Positions 5,636 through 60,148 of a stretch of DNA of 64,000 nucleotides are shown here, one piece after another. The stretch is from Clostridiaceae bacterium BRH_c20a. GTDB taxonomy: Bacteria; Bacillota; Peptococcia; Peptococcales; BICA1-8. The DNA lies in the NCBI GenBank assembly GCA_000961765.1, contig LADT01000009.1:1-64000 (forward strand). Direction: 5' to 3'. Position 1 is the stretch's first letter, and each line of letters begins with the position of its first letter. The notes under the pieces were generated by a model. It was given only the letters and a program-made list of their open reading frames with translations. It was not told the origin of the DNA and searched no databases. The position numbers and the translations under genes are program-made.

Positions 5636-5703
5636 AGAAAATACCTCTGTAAGCGCTTATTCATGGACACTTATTGCCAGATATACTACTAGGCGAACAT
5701 ATT

Positions 5704-5903
5704 GCGTCTGAAATACACCCCTGCAACCTTATCGGTCTGACAATACTTTGGGGTTAATATCTTGCGTCTGACACAAGCATTGCATGTCTATTCCGTAGCC
5801 TTTTGAAGCTTATAGTCACTTATTAGTTTGTGTCAGACGCAATAGTATGCCCCCAAAGTAATGTCAGACGCGTAATGTTCACCCAGGAGTAATTGTCAGA
5901 CGC
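5704..5903. repeat. Inverted array of GCGTCTGACA words (copy C, both arms)
   Basis: Left-arm words start at 5704, 5733 and 5764; right-arm TGTCAGACGC words start at 5831, 5862 and 5894. The period is 29-32 bp. The right arm, read in reverse, closely follows the left arm of copy A, including spacer pieces such as ATTACTTTGGGGGCATACT. It fills the gap between dgkA and ybeY; no gene is seen there. Confidence 0.8.
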
Positions 5904-5931
5904 AATAGTCTATCCCTATAGAAGTCATCCG

Positions 5932-9547: not shown

Positions 9548-9700
9548 TAGACCCTACAGTGCTACAGTTCTACAGTGCTACAGTTCTACAGAAAAATCCT
9601 AGGTTAAGGTTTCGCTTCGCTAGGCTAAGGTTGAGCAAAATTAACATTAAAACACCTGCTTAGCCTTAACCTCAGCCTTAACCTGTCCCGAGGGGACATT
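9548..9700. repeat. 8-bp tandem repeat plus AGGTTAAGG-bounded dispersed element
   Basis: At 9550-9592 CTACAGTG/CTACAGTT units repeat. From 9598 an approximately 100-bp element begins CCTAGGTTAAGGTTTCGC and ends CCTTAACCTGTCCCGAGGGG near 9696. It matches the reverse complement of 27916-28024 along its length. No gene lies in this gap between yqfD and phoH. Confidence 0.7.
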
Positions 9701-16224: not shown

Positions 16225-16376
16225 AAACTACAGAACCTACAGTGCTACAGTGCTACAGTGCTACAGAAGAATACCTAGGTTAAGGTTAAGGTCTATGGTC
16301 TATGGTCTATCAACTATCAACTATCAACTATCAACTATCAACTATCAACTATCAACTATCAACTATCGACTATTAC
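16225..16376. repeat. Compound tandem repeats: CTACAGTG, GGTTAA, CTATGGT, CTATCAA
   Basis: Four different short tandem repeats lie head to tail between hinT and mtaB: CTACAGTG (about 16231-16265), GGTTAA (16279-16291), CTATGGT (16292-16306), then eight CTATCAA units plus variants (16307-16376). The first and third words occur elsewhere in the window. No gene is in this 264-bp gap. Confidence 0.9.
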
Positions 16377-23029: not shown

Positions 23030-23145
23030 GGCCGATAGTCGATAGACAAATATTAATTGACCATCGACTATAGACTATAGACTAGACTATAGACCATAGA
23101 CCATAGACCATAGACTTACTTTTAAATTGACCATCGACCACGCCT
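23030..23145. repeat. CTATAGA/CCATAGA heptad repeats
   Basis: Repeated ACTATAG and ACCATAG units, flanked by two ATTGACCATCGAC copies, between grpE and dnaK. CCATAGA is the reverse complement of the CTATGGT repeat at position 1. No gene is seen. Confidence 0.8.
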
Positions 23146-27811: not shown

Positions 27812-27826
27812 CTCTTGTCTCCTTGA

Positions 27827-27912
27827 ATAGTGACTAGTGACTGGTGACTGGTGACTAGTGGCTAGTTATAGTATTCGGGCCCAGGGCCCAGTGCCCAGTG
27901 CTCAGTGCCCAG
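27827..27912. repeat. Heptad repeats ACTAGTG/ACTGGTG and CAGTGCC
   Basis: Five or six 7-bp GTGACT(A/G)-type units, then four CAGTGCC/CAGTGCT units. Both words occur at other loci (20776; 47205; 54035). It begins 16 bp upstream of hemW. Confidence 0.85.
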
Positions 27913-43784: not shown

Positions 43785-43880
43785 CCTTCGGCAGCCCGGC
43801 GGTCATGGTAGAAATCATCTACTTTAGATCCGTAGCTTTGTGTCCCTGACTTTCATCAGGTTTACCAGTAACAAGAAAAT
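43785..43880 (-). ncRNA. GEMM (cyclic-di-GMP-I type) riboswitch aptamer
   Basis: Minus strand: GGTAAACC, then CCTGAT-GAAA-GTCAGG (stem with GAAA tetraloop), GGGACACAAAGC, CTACGGATCTAAA, a variable stem near GTAGATGATTTCTAC, and CATGACCGCCGGGCTGCC. This is the order of the GEMM-I consensus (GGGCAAACC ... GAAA ... GGGACGCAAAGC ... CGG-CUAA ... GGGUUACC). Whether it prefers c-di-GMP or cyclic GMP-AMP cannot be read here. The 3' terminator suggests transcription control of the agr operon. Confidence 0.85.
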
Positions 43881-51253: not shown

Positions 51254-52576
51254 CTAAAAAATATTAGGAGGAATACCTTTTTTGATATCATGCCGATAAA
51301 CCAGGTTTACAAAAAAATAAAACAAATGATTTAAAGGCTTTTTAAAGAAGTTTTTGTTAATCAGGGTTCTATTAATAATTGACCGCAGGCTAAAAACCTG
51401 ATTATATAGTTTCCAATAGGCCTCTGTCAGCTCTTCAGGTGTCATATTTCCCGGAATATGCACAGCCTCGGTGCCATTATAAGAATAAATATTTCTATTA
51501 TAGATTTTATTTTTTGCTTCTAATTTCTTAAACAAATCGGTTCCGGGAATGGGAGTTAGAATATAGAAGCGGGGTACAATAATTTTATTTTCATCAATGA
51601 AACGGGCAGTATCTAGGATACTTTCCACCGTGTCGGCATCTGTACCTACAACCATTTCTGTACTAACTTCGATACCTGCATCTCTAATCTTGGTAATTAA
51701 TTCAGGATATTCCGAAGTTTTTGCCCAGCCTTTATTTAATTCTGTAAGGCTTTCCTGTTTAATACTTTCAAGACCAAAGCTGAGGGCAATGCAGCCGCTG
51801 TCGGCAATAATTTTTAGCAGCCTATCATTTTTAGCTACATTTATAGAGCATTGACTCATCCACTGCATTTTGAGCTTTTTAATTTCCCGGCATAGCTCAT
51901 ACATATATGCTTCATCTGAAGCTATGTTATCATCTAGTAAAAGTATTTTTTTAAATCCTAAAGATTTTATATGCTGTATATCCCTTATTACCTCTGGTAT
52001 ACTTCTGCGGATATATCTCCCTCGATACAGGCAATATACCGAGCAAAAGGAACAAATATTTGGGCAGCCTCTACCAGCCTGAACCGGTAGAAAATCACCA
52101 ATATTTTTCTTTTGTAACAAATCATACCTAGGTAGAGGCATTTTTTCCAGAGAAATAAGTTCCTGACGGTAATATGGCTTTAAAGTACCCTTTTCAATAT
52201 CCTTGAGTACTTCCCCCCACACCCCTTCAGCATCTCCGATAACAACACTATCGCAGTATTTTTTTGCCTCTTCTGGCATCAGGCTCACCATATACCCACC
52301 TAAAATTACAGTTTTCCCTCGTTTTCTAAACTCCTTAGCAATATCTAGAGTACGAATAACAGCATGGCCCATGCTACTAATACCAATGACATCAGCATCG
52401 GTTTCAAATGGGATATCCTCAATAGTCTCTAAAATCAGCTCAATCTCCCATTCCTTTGGTGTAAATGCAGCCAAAAGAGGAAGAGATAACCCAACGAAAT
52501 ACAGTTTTTCTCTTTTAATTAATTCCCCATTTTTAACATAGGGAGTAGGCTGAATCAGTAATAGTTTCTTTTTCAT
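51254..52576 (-). CDS. B12-binding-domain radical SAM protein (1 of 4)
   Basis: 440 residues. An N-terminal Rossmann-like cobalamin-binding-type domain (about 1-140, ends with ILGGYMVSL) followed by a radical SAM domain with C171-x3-C175-x2-C178 in RGCPNICSFC. No DxHxxG cobalamin motif is visible. It is the most divergent of the four copies, lacking the EPLxLEYLAA start. Two bp from the next gene; ATG with GAAGGGA. Reaction unknown: methylation, cyclisation or another B12/SAM chemistry. Confidence 0.8.
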   Translation of the reverse strand: MKKKLLLIQPTPYVKNGELIKREKLYFVGLSLPLLAAFTPKEWEIELILETIEDIPFETDADVIGISSMGHAVIRTLDIAKEFRKRGKTVILGGYMVSLMPEEAKKYCDSVVIGDAEGVWGEVLKDIEKGTLKPYYRQELISLEKMPLPRYDLLQKKNIGDFLPVQAGRGCPNICSFCSVYCLYRGRYIRRSIPEVIRDIQHIKSLGFKKILLLDDNIASDEAYMYELCREIKKLKMQWMSQCSINVAKNDRLLKIIADSGCIALSFGLESIKQESLTELNKGWAKTSEYPELITKIRDAGIEVSTEMVVGTDADTVESILDTARFIDENKIIVPRFYILTPIPGTDLFKKLEAKNKIYNRNIYSYNGTEAVHIPGNMTPEELTEAYWKLYNQVFSLRSIINRTLINKNFFKKPLNHLFYFFVNLVYRHDIKKGIPPNIF

Positions 52577-52578
52577 AA

Positions 52579-53943
52579 CTATCCCTTCACCATTAATTTG
52601 ATATAAATCAATAAAAACTTCAGTGAACCCTTTATCAATCTTAAAACAGTGCCTAGACCAAATTGTTGAATCACATAAGACGGGTTATTTAACAGCAAAT
52701 TGACATAAAGATTAGTTTTCAGAACTTCAAAATAGTAATGTCGTAGGCTAAGCTTACTGGGTTTGATGCTGACAACAGAAAAACTCCACTGGTCATAGTC
52801 ATCCGGAGCAAATAAAATCCGTTCTTTATATTTATTATATAGTAAAGTACCGGGTAAAGCTGTCAACGGAGTTAAGGTAGATATTTCCGGGGCCAGCTCT
52901 TTTACATATTTTCTAAACTGCAAAAAGTCTTTAGTATTCCAATCGGGATTGAGAATAAAGGAAGCCCAACAAGCAATGCCCAGTTCTTTAAGAATTTCCG
53001 CAGCTAAGATATTTTCTTTTATAGTTGCCTTTTTGTTATAACCTGCTAGTTCTTCCGCTTTAAAGGATTCATAGCCTACCAGACAAGCCCGCAGGCCATT
53101 TTTACTTAGCCTATTTAAAGTCTCCCGGTGGTGAATAATACTCTCTACACTAGCGTAGCAGATAAAGTTTTTCTGGATATTGTCTGATTCCAATAAATGG
53201 CAAAAATTTTCTAATCTCTCTTGGCTGTAAAGGAAATTGTTATCGATTATCATGATACTTGGTTCAGCTATTCTTTGGATCTGAGCTATAATATTTTCCA
53301 TAGGCTCATCCTGCTCTTGTCCCCCTTCTATCTTCCAGCGCAGACAGAAACTGCAATGGGAGCTGCATCCCCGGGAGGTCTGGAGTAATGCACAGGGCTG
53401 ATAGCCAAAATAGGTATAGTGGCTGCGGTATTTTTCAGTAGCTTCCCGGTCAGGGGTAATATACTCATTAATTCCCGATACATCAGTACTTTGAAAGCTG
53501 TTTTCTCTACTATGGACTCCATCAATCAAAGGAACCTTTTCTCCATTTTCCAGATAGTAAAACAGCTTCCTGATATTATCTTGGGTTGTATATTTTACTA
53601 TATGATCAATTTCTCCACAGAAAAAATTCTCCGGGGCCAGAAAAGCTTGGGTACCCCCTGCTAAAATAATAACTCTCTCATCAATTTCCTTAGTCTTAAG
53701 GGCGAGTTCCTTGACACCCCGAACATCGACACATAGGGAAGTAAAGCCCACTATCTGTGGCTTAAAGCCTATCAGCTCTTGGCTAAAATCTTCCTTCCCA
53801 ACCATTAGGTCCAGTATTTTTACTTCATGCTTGTCCCGCAATATAGCAGCAATACATTCTAAACCCAAAGGCTCAGAAAACATAAATTCCCCTAGAGTTA
53901 TGGACTTTTTTCTTCTTTTTGGTCTTACTAAGAGAATACGCAT
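52579..53943 (-). CDS. B12-binding-domain radical SAM protein (2 of 4)
   Basis: 454 residues. N-terminal EPLGLECIAA segment (residues 24-33) and ILDLMVGKEDFSQ typical of the BchE/HpnR type, then C193-x3-C197-x2-C200 in RGCSSHCSFC. Its C-terminal third, including KPSKLSLRHYYFEVLK, aligns with copies 3 and 4, so these are tandem duplicates. GGAGC before the ATG. It is separated from copy 3 by about 420 bp of repeats. Confidence 0.82.
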   Translation of the reverse strand: MRILLVRPKRRKKSITLGEFMFSEPLGLECIAAILRDKHEVKILDLMVGKEDFSQELIGFKPQIVGFTSLCVDVRGVKELALKTKEIDERVIILAGGTQAFLAPENFFCGEIDHIVKYTTQDNIRKLFYYLENGEKVPLIDGVHSRENSFQSTDVSGINEYITPDREATEKYRSHYTYFGYQPCALLQTSRGCSSHCSFCLRWKIEGGQEQDEPMENIIAQIQRIAEPSIMIIDNNFLYSQERLENFCHLLESDNIQKNFICYASVESIIHHRETLNRLSKNGLRACLVGYESFKAEELAGYNKKATIKENILAAEILKELGIACWASFILNPDWNTKDFLQFRKYVKELAPEISTLTPLTALPGTLLYNKYKERILFAPDDYDQWSFSVVSIKPSKLSLRHYYFEVLKTNLYVNLLLNNPSYVIQQFGLGTVLRLIKGSLKFLLIYIKLMVKG

Positions 53944-53987
53944 GGAAAGCTCCTCGCTTTGACTTTTTGGCCAGTTTTTTGGGTCTC

Positions 53988-54330
53988 GTGCTCAGTGGCT
54001 ATTTTTTTAGACAGTCTCTGGGGTTTGGTGCCCGGTGACCAGTGTTCAGTGCCCACAAGGACAATAGCTAATGGGTTGAGATGTTGCGTCTGACAATTTG
54101 CCGGGAAGTCAAATTTAAAGGTCTGCATACTACCGGGTAACATATTGCGTCTGACACAAGCATTGAAGGATATTTTACAAGTCAGTAGTGGCAATTACGA
54201 TACACGACAACACGTGTCACAAGAAATACTTAATCTAGCGAAGCGAAATCTTAATCTAACGTAACGAAGTGGAGTGTAATCTTTTTCTGTAGCACTGTAG
54301 CACTGTAGCACTGTCATACGGTATATACCT
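53988..54330. repeat. Mosaic of repeats incl. GCGTCTGACA array (copy D)
   Basis: 417-bp gap inside the radical SAM cluster. Heptad CAGTG words at about 53990-54050; GCGTCTGACA words at 54086, 54118 (as GGTCTGCA) and 54147 (32 and 29 bp apart); a degenerate TTAATCTAGCGAAGCGAAATC repeat at 54229; CTGTAGCA octamers at 54287-54310. No gene. Confidence 0.75.
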
Positions 54331-54360
54331 TCAGCCGTCACACCTACATCCAGTATAGCC

Positions 54361-55701
54361 TCAAATTGAAAGTATCTTCTTAATATATTGCCAGATAATT
54401 CGACTAACCCCCAGTGAGAGTTTAACATTGGCTAGAAGGCCGTACTTCATATTCTTCTTTAGACTCCTTGGCTTTAGAGTTAGCTTAAAATAAATCTTTA
54501 AGATATTATAATAATAACTTCTTATGGATAATTTGCTGGGCTTAACGACCAAATTGGCCAAATCCCACTGTTCATATTTCTCTCTAGGTATTATTAATTG
54601 CTCCTTATACCGATCATAGAGAGGGGTCCCTGGTAGGGGAGTGAAGGGCTGGAGGTTAATAAACTGCAAATCCCATTTTTTTAGCCACTTATATAAATAA
54701 TCAAAATCCTCTGTATCCCAATCTATTCCTAAAATAAAGGTTCCGTAGCAGTCAACATTATATTTCGCCAAGACCTCTATGGCTTTTTCGTTTACAGCTT
54801 TACTGCTTTTTTTATTATATAGCTCTAATTCTTCCTCTTTAGCTGTTTCTAGTCCTACTATCACTGCCCGTAAGCCCATAATAGCAAATCTCTCTATTGT
54901 TTTTTCATTTTGGGCAATAAAGTCAGCCCGCCCGTAGATTAGGAATCTTTTTTTTATTCCTTCCTGCTCTAATAAATCACAAAATTTTTCCACCCGTTTT
55001 TTTGAGTAGAGAAAATTATCATCAACAATATAAATTTCTGGCTCTTTAATCCTTTTTATTTCCTCAATAACATCGGCAACATCTCGCTCATAATACTTAT
55101 CCCCAGTAACCTGCCGACAAAAGCAAAAGCTGCAGGTATAGGGGCAGCCATATGATGTCTTCACTAATGCACAGGGGTTATGAAAAACATAATAGTAGCT
55201 AGCGCGATACCGTTGTGTTATCTTGCGATTAGGATGAATATTTGGTACATTTTCAGCTTTTTCACCGTAGAAAAGAGTATCTTGCTGTTCTTTATATACA
55301 CCCTGCTCAATATCATCCACCAGCTCTGAAAAAACCTCTATCCCATTACCTGTAACAATAAAATCTATATTTTTACCAAAAAAGTCCTCGGCAACAACCT
55401 CAGCATGGACACCGCCTACAATTATTTTAATCCCTGGATTTATTTTCTTGATGACCCCAGCATACTCTTTAATAATATTTACATGGGAGATATATGCGGT
55501 TAATGCAACTACCTCCGGCTGATAATCTTTTATAAAATAAGCTAAAGACCTTTTTTCTAAGATCATATCCACTAGCACAACCTGATGCTTCCCTTTTACT
55601 GCAGCCGCTAAATACTCAAGCTCTAAAGGCTCGCAAATCATAATACTCTGTAAACCGATAGTATCCTTATGGGGTTTGGGTCTAACTAATAAAATCCTCA
55701 T
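54361..55701 (-). CDS. B12-binding-domain radical SAM protein (3 of 4)
   Basis: 446 residues. EPLELEYLAAA at 24-34, IIVGGVHAE at 93-101, C186-x3-C190-x2-C193 in YGCPYTCSFC. The KTSYGC and NPCALV elements are shared with copies 2 and 4. C-terminus KPSKLSIRSYYYNILK. Overlaps the methyltransferase stop by 4 bp (ATGA), so they are coupled. Confidence 0.83.
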   Translation of the reverse strand: MRILLVRPKPHKDTIGLQSIMICEPLELEYLAAAVKGKHQVVLVDMILEKRSLAYFIKDYQPEVVALTAYISHVNIIKEYAGVIKKINPGIKIIVGGVHAEVVAEDFFGKNIDFIVTGNGIEVFSELVDDIEQGVYKEQQDTLFYGEKAENVPNIHPNRKITQRYRASYYYVFHNPCALVKTSYGCPYTCSFCFCRQVTGDKYYERDVADVIEEIKRIKEPEIYIVDDNFLYSKKRVEKFCDLLEQEGIKKRFLIYGRADFIAQNEKTIERFAIMGLRAVIVGLETAKEEELELYNKKSSKAVNEKAIEVLAKYNVDCYGTFILGIDWDTEDFDYLYKWLKKWDLQFINLQPFTPLPGTPLYDRYKEQLIIPREKYEQWDLANLVVKPSKLSIRSYYYNILKIYFKLTLKPRSLKKNMKYGLLANVKLSLGVSRIIWQYIKKILSI

Positions 55702-56339
55702 TTTTTATCTCCATTTTGTAGTGTGCTTAAAAAGATACTAGGCACGAAAAAACTATTTTCTAATCCCTTTTGATTTAATAAATTAAGCTCTGCTTTTTGC
55801 ACTAATTCTCTAACCTGCCCATTTGAAGGATAAGATGCCTTACCGGTAGTTAATTTCACCAGCTTCATTACTACTTTATCATAAAAATTATTTTCCGAGG
55901 CCTGGACTAAAAATAAATAGCCCCCGGGCTTTACCACCCGCTTAAACTCCTGTAGGGCCTTTAGTTTATTTTGATAATAGGGAAAGGAGTGACAGCAGGT
56001 CAAAAAGTCAAAATGGTTATCAAGAAAAGGTAAATTTAACGCATCTCCAACAATTACTTTTCCATTGGTAACCTTTTTGCTAGCAAGCGCTATCATTTGC
56101 TCTGAACTGTCTATGCCAATTAACGCTAAATTATGATGGCGAAGTTCCTCCTTGATATCCTCCAAAAGCTGTCCAGTACCACAACCCACATCTAGCAAGT
56201 TAATCTCTTCTTCAAAATCAGCAGCTATATATTTCTGAAGTTCAGCTACTACTAAATCTCGAGTAGGCATTAGGGAATATTTTTGGACCCATAATTTTTC
56301 ATAACGGTCAGCCCAAAAATCCCAGATATTTTGTGACAT
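55698..56339 (-). CDS. Class I SAM-dependent methyltransferase
   Basis: 213 residues. Motif I LLDVGCGTGQLLE at about 48-60, acidic IGIDSSEQM, and DALNLPFLDNHFDFLTCC. Small-molecule methyltransferase fold (Methyltransf_11/25 type). ATG after GGAGG. It is fused by overlap into the radical SAM operon and probably modifies the same product. Confidence 0.85.
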   Translation of the reverse strand: MSQNIWDFWADRYEKLWVQKYSLMPTRDLVVAELQKYIAADFEEEINLLDVGCGTGQLLEDIKEELRHHNLALIGIDSSEQMIALASKKVTNGKVIVGDALNLPFLDNHFDFLTCCHSFPYYQNKLKALQEFKRVVKPGGYLFLVQASENNFYDKVVMKLVKLTTGKASYPSNGQVRELVQKAELNLLNQKGLENSFFVPSIFLSTLQNGDKK

Positions 56340-56380
56340 TGGGAAACCTCCAAATCATCGACTATTGGGTTGGGATATTT

Positions 56381-56526
56381 GGATGCATCCGATGCAAGTT
56401 AAGATTACAGGATGCATCTACTCAAAGGTCTAGCTTAAGGGATGCTAATTGACAATCATCGGATGCATCGTGCAGAATTGCTTAAAAGCAGATGCATCCC
56501 AAAAAACTGTCATTCATCTGATGCCA
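56381..56526. repeat. Array of GGATGCATC palindromes, ~30-bp period
   Basis: GGATGCATCC at 56381, GGATGCATCT at 56410, GGATGCTAAT at 56440, GGATGCATCG at 56461, AGATGCATCC at 56490 and CTGATGCC near 56518 (one interval is 21 bp). The words are self-complementary. It fills the 174-bp gap between two cluster genes. Confidence 0.75.
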
Positions 56527-57848
56527 CCTATTATTAAATTAAGAATTGATTTAATAATAGGTCTTATATTACTCCTCAAACGTCTAACATCACTATAAGC
56601 CAGTAAATATAATTTATAAAATTCCAAATAAAACCTAGTAACACTCAATTTTGTTGGTTTGATATTCAAGTGTAAAAAGTCGTTATTTTCATACTTATTC
56701 TCTGGGATTATTAGCCTTTCTTGATATTTTTCATAGCCAGGTACTCCTTTTAGAGGGGTAAAAATAGAGAACATGCATAAATCCAGTGCCATTTTTTTCA
56801 CAATAGCACTTAGGCGTTTAAAATCTTCTAATCCATAATCCTCATTAACTATAAACAATCCACAGCTCTTAATGCCATTCTTCCTTAAAAGTTCAATTGC
56901 CTGCAAGTTACTGTGAGTGGAAGTCTTTTTATTATAATTATTTAAAGTTTCATCATCTACAGCCTCAAGGCCCACTATTATCTCTGATATCCCACTAGCC
57001 TTAAGCTTAGACAAAATATCCTGATGGGCACAAATAAGGTCGGCTCGGCCGTAGATGCTAAAATCTTTTTTAATGTTATACACTGAAATCAATCTGCAAA
57101 ATTCTAATAATCTATTTTTATCTACTAGAAAGTCGTCATCGATAATAAAAATTTTCTCCTGCTCTAAATCACTTATCTCCCTAACTACTTTAGTAATATC
57201 CCGAGTAGAATACTCTCCACCATTGAGACAAGCACAATAGCAAAAATTACAGCTGTAAGGACAGCCCCAGGCTGTTTTTACTAAGGCACATTGTTCTTTC
57301 CCAAAATATCGAAACTTATCTTTATAAAGGTGCAAGTGTGTTCGATCAGGGAGAGGTAGAGTATTAGGAACTAATGACTCACCTTGATTTTTAATCCATT
57401 CATTATCTTTTTTGAAACATATATTTTTAACCGGCTGCCAACAGCCTTGATTTTGCAAATTTAATAGAACATCCCGAAAGGCTTGTAAGGGATTAGCATG
57501 TATTATTATATCAATATTAAAATCGTAGAAATCCCGCCAATTAAGTTCGGCATGGATACCCCCCACCACAACCTTAATATTTGTTCCATACTCTTTTACA
57601 ATTTCAGCATATTCTTTAATTAAATTAACGTGGATTGTATAGCCAGTAATAGCTACAACATCTGGCTGGTTATCTTTTAAAAACGAAGAGAAAGGTTGTC
57701 TCTCCAATAAACCATCATATATCCTATAATTAAAATTCAGTTCATTCGCTACTGCAGCTAGATATTCTAATTCCAAAGGCTCAAAACGGACTGTCTTTAA
57801 TTTAGCAAATAAATTTTGGGGCTTGGGCCTAACTAGTAAAATTTTCAT
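56514..57848 (-). CDS. B12-binding-domain radical SAM protein (4 of 4)
   Basis: 444 residues from the ATG at 57848, behind GGGGGAAACAG. EPLELEYLAAV at 23-33, VVVGGIHAE at 93-101, C196-x3-C200-x2-C203 in WGCPYSCNFC. The longer in-frame reading adds a spurious hydrophobic N-terminus and is not used. C-terminus KPTKLSVTRFYLEFYK like its paralogues. It overlaps the preceding GNAT-like gene by 20 bp. Confidence 0.83.
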   Translation of the reverse strand: MKILLVRPKPQNLFAKLKTVRFEPLELEYLAAVANELNFNYRIYDGLLERQPFSSFLKDNQPDVVAITGYTIHVNLIKEYAEIVKEYGTNIKVVVGGIHAELNWRDFYDFNIDIIIHANPLQAFRDVLLNLQNQGCWQPVKNICFKKDNEWIKNQGESLVPNTLPLPDRTHLHLYKDKFRYFGKEQCALVKTAWGCPYSCNFCYCACLNGGEYSTRDITKVVREISDLEQEKIFIIDDDFLVDKNRLLEFCRLISVYNIKKDFSIYGRADLICAHQDILSKLKASGISEIIVGLEAVDDETLNNYNKKTSTHSNLQAIELLRKNGIKSCGLFIVNEDYGLEDFKRLSAIVKKMALDLCMFSIFTPLKGVPGYEKYQERLIIPENKYENNDFLHLNIKPTKLSVTRFYLEFYKLYLLAYSDVRRLRSNIRPIIKSILNLIIGGIR

Positions 57849-58842
57849 CTGTTTCCCCCATCTTAAAGACACGAAAATCATATATAGGTATTTGATAACT
57901 AAACAAATTAATGTATTGATTAGCAAGCTTATCCAATAAGAAATTAGAATGACTAATATACATGCCCTTAGTAAAGAGCTCACTGCCTAGCTTTAGCTTT
58001 GTTTCTTCCGCCGTTTGACCTAAATCTATGGTCTTAAACCTATTATCAATGGCAAAGTCAATAATCTCTAGGAGTAAATTAAGGTAAATATCAAAGGTAC
58101 TGTTTAATTTATGGCTAAATCCAATAAAGAGAAAGATTAATTCTCTACCATTATCCACGACTTGGGCAAAGCCCAGTTTTTGTTCTTTATGAGTGGCTAT
58201 AATTATTATTGATGGCAAAGGCTGTTGTTGGAAAAATTCAAAATTCAATTTTTCAAGCTTTGCGTGGGAATTTAAGTATACTTCTTCATAAAGCTGATAA
58301 TAATCTCTATCAAAAGCATGGGGCTTAATATAATCTACTTTAACATCCTGCCATTTTTTTTTAGCTTTTTTTATTCTATAACGATATGGGCTACGTAGAG
58401 ATTCTAAATATTGATTAAAGCTTGACCAAAGCACCTCCATTTTACAGCTAGGCAGGGTATTTCCCCCCTTAGCAGGAAGGCCTAAAGCACTGTTTAAAAT
58501 CAGCTTGGCTCCTTTTTTTGCCTGAAAATGAGCTAATACAAACTTCTCATACCCTGAACAAACACTAAATCCCTCTTTTGCAACAGAGCAGGGTATGCCC
58601 ATAATTGTTACCGGAATTTTTAAAGTAAAAATACTATAGGTAAAGATATCAGGCTTTAAGCGATAATCAACATATGCCGCCTTCAGTTGATCTGTTTCCA
58701 GCAACATATTATATGTCTGCTGACAGGGATTGACCGTTTCTAAATGTTGGAGAAAGCGTCTCTTGAGAAATATATTTTCACCAGCCAGTTGGTCCCACTG
58801 TTTTGGAAGTTCTTCCGTACAATTTACTGTTAACCACTTCAT
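57829..58842 (-). CDS. FemAB/GNAT-fold acyltransferase-like protein (BioF2/GNAT_6 type)
   Basis: 337 residues. The C-terminal half (YRYRIKKAKKKW ... LGFAQVVDNGRELIFLFIGF ... IDLGQTAEETKLKLGSE) has the GNAT_6/FemAB-like pattern of proteins that transfer acyl or aminoacyl groups. The N-terminal half shows the first half-fold. ATG start; ends overlapping the radical SAM gene and starts overlapping the next GNAT by 4 bp. Confidence 0.7.
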   Translation of the reverse strand: MKWLTVNCTEELPKQWDQLAGENIFLKRRFLQHLETVNPCQQTYNMLLETDQLKAAYVDYRLKPDIFTYSIFTLKIPVTIMGIPCSVAKEGFSVCSGYEKFVLAHFQAKKGAKLILNSALGLPAKGGNTLPSCKMEVLWSSFNQYLESLRSPYRYRIKKAKKKWQDVKVDYIKPHAFDRDYYQLYEEVYLNSHAKLEKLNFEFFQQQPLPSIIIIATHKEQKLGFAQVVDNGRELIFLFIGFSHKLNSTFDIYLNLLLEIIDFAIDNRFKTIDLGQTAEETKLKLGSELFTKGMYISHSNFLLDKLANQYINLFSYQIPIYDFRVFKMGETDENFTS

Positions 58843-59924
58843 ATGAGTACCTCATAGGCTTTAAACTTTTTATATTCCTGGCAGCCAAAATCCTCCCACC
58901 GAATACCCAAGCTCCGGGATTTGATATTGTTTTCCTCTACCCAACCCGCCTCACAGATTTTATATTTATCCTTTACTACACTATATAATAAATCAAAAAA
59001 TCCCAGCACTGCACCGGAGCCTTGGTACTTTTGGCCCACAGCAATCTCCGCAATTTTAAACTTATCAATTTTCCCTAAACCCATTTTATACTGAACCAAG
59101 GCTTTTAATCCTAAACCTTTTCCCTGGGGGAGTAATTGATTGAAATCAGGATACCAGAGCATCATCCCTATAGGCTGACCCTCCTTTTCGGCAAAAATTA
59201 AGTTTTCACCTTTTAAAAACCATCGAAAAGGGTGAAACAGTTCTAGATCCTCTTTAACAGTCCGATCTGCCCACCAAAGATGGTCACGAAAACATAAATT
59301 ATTGAGATAGGTATATATTTCTATTTCTCTATCCAATCGAGACAAATCAGCAAAGCGAAAGGTAAACCCTTTCTGTTTAATTCTACTAAGAATTGGCTTT
59401 TCTTTTTCCATATTAAACCTGTCAATTTCTACCGAAAACGAAGAAAAATTATATTCTCTACATCCTGAAAAAAAGGAGGAATAATAATCGGGATTATAGG
59501 CCAGCCCAAAGGTAGGTGTTTCATTAAAATGGGAAGCTAAGAAACCCACCCTATAATTCAAATGGGCATCTAAACCAATAACTATTCTTTTCAATCCTTT
59601 TTTTTCTGCTAGTTTCTTTGCTTCTGAGATAATTAAATTTACAGCCTTTTGGGCATCTCTTTTCGCCTCAAAAAAACTTACTATTAGCATATCTTCCTGT
59701 TTATAATCAATTATAAATGCCGCTCTAGCTAACATTCCACCATTGTTTTCCACCCAAACAGGATAAACCCTGGCATGCTCTAAATAGGCTGTTTTCTTAG
59801 ATAGAAACATTTGAGCAATAGAAGACATAGCATCCCGATACAAAGGATCATCTCTATATACTTCTTTAGTAAACCCTATGAATTTTTTTAGATCATCCTT
59901 AGTAGAAAGATATTTCAGTTTCAT
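58839..59924 (-). CDS. GNAT-like acyltransferase
   Basis: 361 residues. LDAHLNYRVGFL and EIAVGQKYQGSGAVLGFF segments fit a GNAT-type acyl-CoA fold of the YghO sort. It begins the cluster (AAAGGAAG before the ATG). With the gene above it forms a pair of acyl-transfer enzymes, suggesting the pathway product carries an acyl or amide group. Confidence 0.7.
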   Translation of the reverse strand: MKLKYLSTKDDLKKFIGFTKEVYRDDPLYRDAMSSIAQMFLSKKTAYLEHARVYPVWVENNGGMLARAAFIIDYKQEDMLIVSFFEAKRDAQKAVNLIISEAKKLAEKKGLKRIVIGLDAHLNYRVGFLASHFNETPTFGLAYNPDYYSSFFSGCREYNFSSFSVEIDRFNMEKEKPILSRIKQKGFTFRFADLSRLDREIEIYTYLNNLCFRDHLWWADRTVKEDLELFHPFRWFLKGENLIFAEKEGQPIGMMLWYPDFNQLLPQGKGLGLKALVQYKMGLGKIDKFKIAEIAVGQKYQGSGAVLGFFDLLYSVVKDKYKICEAGWVEENNIKSRSLGIRWEDFGCQEYKKFKAYEVLI

Positions 59925-59956
59925 AGTACCAAACTTCCTTTACGCACCAATATAAT

Positions 59957-60148
59957 AGGACGGTAGTTATCTTATCCATAAAAGGCAAGTAACTACCGTC
60001 CCTACTTTATTATTTATATTATATATCATTGGGGACATACCTGTCCAAGTTTGAAGTTCTAAATTTGATTTAAGCTATGCTCCGTAGTATGACATGAATC
60101 CAACCTCTAAAATCAAACATCTAATCTCGTCGAGTAGGGTGTGTCCCC
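59957..60148. repeat. GGGACGGTAGTTA hairpin and GGGGACATACC...GGTGTGTCCCC element
   Basis: AGGACGGTAGTTA (59957-59969) faces TAACTACCGTCCC (59990-60002); GGGGACATACC (60031-60041) faces GGTGTGTCCCC (60138-60148). The second ends 6 bp after the ilvD stop (60155). Both resemble the short palindromic elements with GGGGAC ends elsewhere in the window. The gap holds no gene. Confidence 0.6.

Follow-up and report, generated by a model that had tools for sequence, protein, structure and literature searches.

A conserved seven-gene operon of anaerobic bacteria with four B12-binding radical SAM enzymes and a possible acyl or lipid-like product

In the radical SAM enzymes HpnR (TIGR04367) and BchE (TIGR02026), a B12-binding domain is followed by the radical SAM domain. 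Chemistry other than methylation is possible in this class, as BchE shows (PMC13142503), and in OxsB and TsrM the lower face of the cobalamin is determined by the loop that follows strand 3 (PMC13331322). Radical SAM enzymes also act on lipid chains, as in the membrane-spanning lipid synthases Mss and Tes (PMC13274423, PMC8941075). Among transferases built from two GNAT units, FemX, MprF, and Sbb17 are aminoacyl transferases with the Fem fold, and tandem GNATs include GlmA (5kf1) and a protein from the clavulanate cluster (2wpw). The operon compared with these systems here encodes four B12-binding radical SAM proteins, a methyltransferase, and two double-GNAT transferases, and no published description of it was found in the open-access literature.

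The window is a 64,000-nucleotide stretch from Clostridiaceae bacterium BRH_c20a (contig LADT01000009.1). A first-pass annotation had placed a seven-gene cluster at 51254–59924, and an ORF check recovers all seven ORFs on the minus strand, intact and at the positions then given. Read from 59924 down to 51254, they are GNAT361 (58839–59924), a tandem GNAT acyltransferase and the first gene of the operon; Fem337 (57829–58842), a Fem/Acetyltransf_6-type transferase; R1 (56514–57848), a B12-binding radical SAM protein of the HpnR/BchE-like class; MT (55698–56339), a class I SAM methyltransferase (Methyltransf_11, 84.4 bits); and the B12-binding radical SAM proteins R2 (54361–55701), R3 (52579–53943), and R4 (51254–52576). 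The tight packing noted earlier also holds, with overlaps of 4 bp (GNAT361/Fem337), 20 bp (Fem337/R1), and 4 bp (MT/R2), a 2-bp spacing between R3 and R4, and two repeat-carrying gaps. The R2–R3 gap (53944–54360, 417 bp) contains TGTCAGACGCAA boxes and a CTACAGTG-type tandem repeat, and a search of this gap for a conserved ORF found none; the R1–MT gap (56340–56513, 174 bp) contains GATGCATC-type repeats, as read from the sequence. R1 most likely begins with the ATG at 57848; the GTG at 57983, which would lengthen the protein, is a less likely start.

The upstream neighbor of the operon is ilvD, and predicted ComEA- and ComEC-like genes lie downstream. Between ilvD and the operon, a strong hairpin is found on the minus strand at 59955–60003 (−36.2 kcal/mol and a z score of −4.65 for the 116-nt stretch 59925–60040). 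This hairpin, for which no Rfam family was matched, is probably a terminator or attenuator, and a search upstream of the operon for a B12 riboswitch found none. Elsewhere in the window, a c-di-GMP-I riboswitch is found on the minus strand at 43787–43876 (77 bits). The TGTCAGACGCAA box is dispersed and intergenic, with 11 copies against 0.04 expected, mostly in pairs ~60–65 bp apart (129–140, 194–205, 283–294, 1779–1852, 5702–5773, 5831–5905, and 54084–54156). Many tandem arrays of 6–8-bp units (CTATGGT, CTACAGTG, CTATCAA, and others), apparently intergenic, are also present (1–58, 9554–9591, 16237–16266, 16307–16373, 23066–23116, 27824–27912, and 54287–54314).

All four radical SAM proteins score above the Pfam gathering cut-offs for the radical SAM domain and for the N-terminal B12-binding Rossmann domain PF02310 (57.9 and 53.4 bits for R1, 61.1 and 66.0 for R2, 47.3 and 54.9 for R3, and 61.8 and 38.8 for R4), and the presence of the latter domain suggests that R1–R4 bind cobalamin. 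The CxxxCxxC motif of the radical SAM core is intact in R1 (residues 196/200/203), R2, R3, and R4 and is kept in at least 95% of homologues, so that the loss of Cys motifs named in the first-pass annotation as a possible objection is not observed; in R2 the motif extends to an invariant CxxxCxxCxC. Asp45 and Gly96–Gly97 are conserved in R1–R3. In R2 the loop after strand 3 has conserved Tyr70 and His73, and in R4, across 78 aligned sequences, Cys182 and the loop Met69–Gly70–His71 are conserved. By analogy with OxsB and TsrM, Tyr70/His73 of R2 and Met69/His71 of R4 are candidate lower-face residues of the cobalamin. Judged by its sequence, each of the four enzymes may methylate or oxidize.

R1, R2, and R3 share 33–40% identity with one another, whereas R4 shares only 23–28% with them and is therefore not a fourth duplicate, as the earlier description of four paralogues would have it. 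In a tree that included the nearest outside relatives from 399 genomes, R1–R3 form one clade apart from those relatives (SH-aLRT 99.8) and R4 lies far off; a larger tree, built from 299 sequences, recovers R2, R3, and R4 each as a monophyletic group and R3 as the sister of R2. R1–R3 are therefore, as far as trees and identities indicate, three in-cluster duplicates, in line with the first-pass view of duplicates kept in one operon, and are older than the spread of the cluster over phyla; R4, the most conserved gene of the cluster (median identity 64%), is by the same evidence an independent recruit from a separate lineage. The EPLxLEYLAA stretch that had been cited for duplication lies in the B12-binding domain and is in our view a class-level feature, a version of which is also kept by related singletons. 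The nearest outside relatives of R2 (L138, L139, L141, L144, and L146) are single genes of ~470 aa in contexts unrelated to the cluster that offer no clue to a substrate, and several outside R2-like genes adjoin a second conserved gene of ~450–476 aa, a separate two-gene unit. Distant relatives of R4 on Synechocystis and Paraclostridium plasmids share no partners with the cluster.

Similar to HpnR and BchE, R1–R3 have the B12-binding domain before the radical SAM domain, and they align with both over nearly their full length, yet they fall far below the NCBIfam cut-offs. Of the curated families, HpnR is matched best by R1–R3, at 176, 175.5, and 141.7 bits against a cut-off of 650, and the best BchE score is 142.1 bits against 481; the likeness to BchE and HpnR suggested earlier thus stands for the class and fails for the families. 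The operon further differs from these systems in having three paralogues in a genome without a hopanoid cyclase. Among the best curated matches of R4 are PhpK (97.4 bits; cut-off 600; best of the other three, R1 at 102.9), HpnJ (85 bits, below cut-off), and AprD4 (50.6 bits; cut-off 500), and ApyD scores 83 bits. Unlike PhpK, HpnJ, and AprD4, R4 has the conserved Cys182, the Met69–Gly70–His71 loop, and fixed partner genes. Its nearest solved structure by sequence is AprD4 (6fd2). The gene setting differs from that of Mss and Tes, and R2 and R4 have no sequence match to tetraether synthase (Tes) among solved structures.

The two transferases are both confidently predicted to adopt double-GNAT folds (AlphaFold2 pLDDT 93 for GNAT361 and 94 for Fem337), in agreement with the two GNAT-like enzymes first proposed, and Fem337 is of the Fem/MprF type. 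Each window copy scores just under the Pfam cut-offs and is clear as a family: Acetyltransf_1 is matched in 17 of 24 relatives of GNAT361, and Acetyltransf_6 in 26 of 31 relatives of Fem337 at E ≤ 0.01, with FemAB_like in eight. The family Pfam match together with the double-GNAT fold places Fem337 in the FemAB/Acetyltransf_6 group. The best Foldseek matches of GNAT361 are tandem GNATs such as GlmA and 2wpw (TM-score 0.5–0.6, identity ~12%), and the conserved residues His121, Asn123, Tyr204, Trp257–Asp260, and Trp328 are its own. The Foldseek neighbors of the Fem337 model are Sbb17, FemX, and MprF (identity 10–13%), and a sequence search for a relative in the PDB found none. From these folds, the pair would transfer acyl and aminoacyl groups to form amides or esters, and radical chemistry at unactivated carbons would follow. 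Distant relatives of GNAT361 lie in unrelated single-gene contexts that give no hint of a substrate.

The search of other genomes that had been proposed reveals a conserved, co-occurring unit. Among 399 genomes sampled from the phylum, orthologues of R4, Fem337, and R2 are found in exactly the same eight, always adjacent within a few kilobases, and no copies of the three are scattered without the cluster. Fem337 is strictly cluster-specific, its ninth match scoring only 49 bits; R2 scores above 440 bits in the eight genomes and 311 in the next best. GNAT361 orthologues occur in nine genomes, the eight plus a lone copy in G411. A scan of one genome per species across 84,980 species gave 147 relatives of R4, of which the best 80 are labeled Bacillota, Kiritimatiellota, Lentisphaerota, Fibrobacterota, Thermodesulfobacteriota, Fidelibacterota, KSB1, Melainabacteria, and Actinomycetota; single phylum labels may be contamination because many carriers are metagenome bins. 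GNAT361, Fem337, and R4 are together in 64 of these 80 loci, in seven phyla, with a median gap of −1 bp over 367 adjacent gene pairs. Most of the loci without the complete trio are cut by contig ends; Electrothrix (L092) and KSB1 (L112) have neither GNAT361 nor Fem337 near R4. Pairwise identities correlate between the cluster genes (Spearman 0.37–0.82). The seven genes almost certainly constitute one functional unit. That they are unrelated neighbors joined by chance or misassembly has a vanishingly small probability: the window copy is interrupted by repeat-filled gaps, but the same set of genes lies side by side in different phyla and co-occurs exactly in the 399-genome sample, which has already refuted this explanation.

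There is considerable variability around the conserved core. R2 is present in 63 of the 64 clusters and R3 in 31. MT is found in 44 loci and a further radical SAM subfamily, R1b, in 18, never both and in two neither (counts that ignore kinship), and R3 is never found with R1b. The R1b variant occurs mostly in Lachnospiraceae and also in Acetivibrio, which is placed elsewhere in the R4 tree. An acyl-AMP ligase (16 of 64 complete loci) and an acyl carrier protein (14 of 64) lie upstream, mainly in the R1b variant, and the carrier protein gene often overlaps the start of GNAT361. In two families, a FeeM-like N-acyl amino acid synthase and a phosphatidylserine (PS) decarboxylase homologue lie between R4 and R1. 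The three FeeM-type genomes contain two PS decarboxylases and the other six cluster genomes tested contain one; the cluster-borne copy is therefore extra, and in two of the three a CDP-alcohol transferase adjoins the non-cluster copy. DegV follows R4 in five loci. The accessory genes are found in a minority of loci and few lineages, and the window lacks the ligase, carrier protein, FeeM, cluster-type PS decarboxylase, and DegV. A PLP decarboxylase (c7), considered as a polyamine hint, was set aside as too rare, being beside the cluster in few loci and in mixed orientation. In two related Clostridia bins (L031 and L032), a serpin lipoprotein gene is directly upstream of the cluster.

Among the accessory genes, the ligase with its carrier protein, FeeM with PS decarboxylase, and DegV suggest a product that is acylated and lipid-like. 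Of the lipid- or polyprenoid-like substrate first proposed, these genes of other loci would favor the lipid-like part; the polyprenoid part is not supported, as the genome gave no SQHop_cyclase match and no prenyl enzyme was seen among the conserved cluster genes. Our preferred reading, held with not quite even confidence, is a dedicated operon of anaerobes for an acyl or lipid-like pathway; the acyl substrate, the reaction types, and the order of steps are what we infer. The tandem GNAT would acylate an amine or amino acid, with acyl-ACP (or acyl-CoA) as the donor. The Fem-type transferase would attach another aminoacyl or acyl group. Next, R4 would catalyze the committed radical step, which all versions share. 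R1, R2, and optionally R3 would each act at a separate unactivated carbon in the acyl chain or core, by cobalamin-dependent methylation or oxidative ring or bond formation. MT would methylate a heteroatom, and the version without MT has extra R1-type enzymes. A bolder proposal, to be taken more tentatively still, is that the product represents a new class of acyl metabolites or lipids tailored by radical chemistry. Many phyla of anaerobes, rumen Lachnospiraceae among them, would share this class and make it with three to five modular B12 radical SAM enzymes, a methyltransferase being exchangeable for further ones.

Several observations stand against the acyl or lipid-like reading: the accessory genes are scarce and missing from the window cluster, the likeness to HpnR and BchE is at the level of class, and isolated GNAT relatives occur elsewhere. 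In addition, R4 is closest among solved structures to AprD4, whose substrate is an aminoglycoside, and the proteins nearest in fold to GNAT361 and Fem337, the glucosamine acetyltransferase GlmA and Sbb17 with streptothrisamine, act on glucosamine and streptothrisamine, so that by these relatives a sugar core would fit equally well. The product would then resemble an amino-sugar or aminocyclitol antibiotic, with GNAT361 acylating an amine, Fem337 adding an amino acid from aminoacyl-tRNA, R4 catalyzing an AprD4-like deoxygenation, and R1–R3 C-methylating. Overall we consider this unlikely: sugar-forming, glycosyl, or aminotransferase families do not recur in the clusters, R4 scores a tenth of the AprD4 cut-off, identity to the GlmA- and Sbb17-type folds is only 10–13%, and the carrier protein, ligase, FeeM, and PS decarboxylase are left unexplained. 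A role in remodeling membrane phospholipids, by chain methylation, coupling, or head-group change, rather than in making a free small molecule, would draw on the second PS decarboxylase of two families, on the lipid-linked acceptors of the FemX and MprF folds, and on some carriers being bins of Butyrivibrio, for which membrane-spanning lipids of the diabolic-acid type are reported (PMC13274423). We regard it as improbable, since R2 and R4 do not match tetraether synthase, a lipid enzyme common to all clusters is absent, and the window cluster is without PS decarboxylase.

Another reading considered was a RiPP pathway, with a peptide precursor as the substrate. Many B12 radical SAM enzymes belong to RiPP pathways, and ApyD is among the families that R4 matches, but the 64 clusters contain no conserved small ORF in their gaps or flanks except the carrier protein and a ligase tail, and peptidase or transporter families do not recur, making a RiPP very unlikely. 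Nor were ketosynthase or condensation domains of PKS or NRPS found among the core and accessory proteins scanned, with flanking proteins scanned in part, so the first-pass view that no peptide precursor, PKS, or NRPS is present is borne out for the 64 clusters and the scanned proteins. Modification of a hopanoid or polyprenoid in the manner of HpnR or HpnJ has a slimmer chance yet: no curated family matches R1–R3 better than HpnR, but the scores are far under its cut-off, and searching the genome with PF13243 (SQHop_cyclase_C) gave no match; the control was positive in known genomes. The missing cyclase already largely refutes this hypothesis, and it was rejected.

The operon is intact and strictly co-inherited, encodes several B12 radical SAM enzymes but no known core synthase, and lies outside the usual cluster classes, and could therefore be missed by class-based genome mining. 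Since named cultured anaerobes carry it (Alkaliphilus transvaalensis, Clostridium tunisiense, Geosporobacter, Sedimentibacter, Acetivibrio mesophilus, and Candidatus Formimonas warabiya), the product is directly findable. The R1–R3 duplicates and the exchange of MT for R1b provide a natural set for asking how B12 radical SAM enzymes gain different target sites. Two records call for comment. At L033 (4851–6083, genome G055), R4 is shortened by an in-frame stop that is either an assembly error or decay, the gene being intact in the genus-mate G139. The record of L129, from Acetoanaerobium noterae, is filed as a plasmid, and its size of 2.6 Mb suggests a chromosome.
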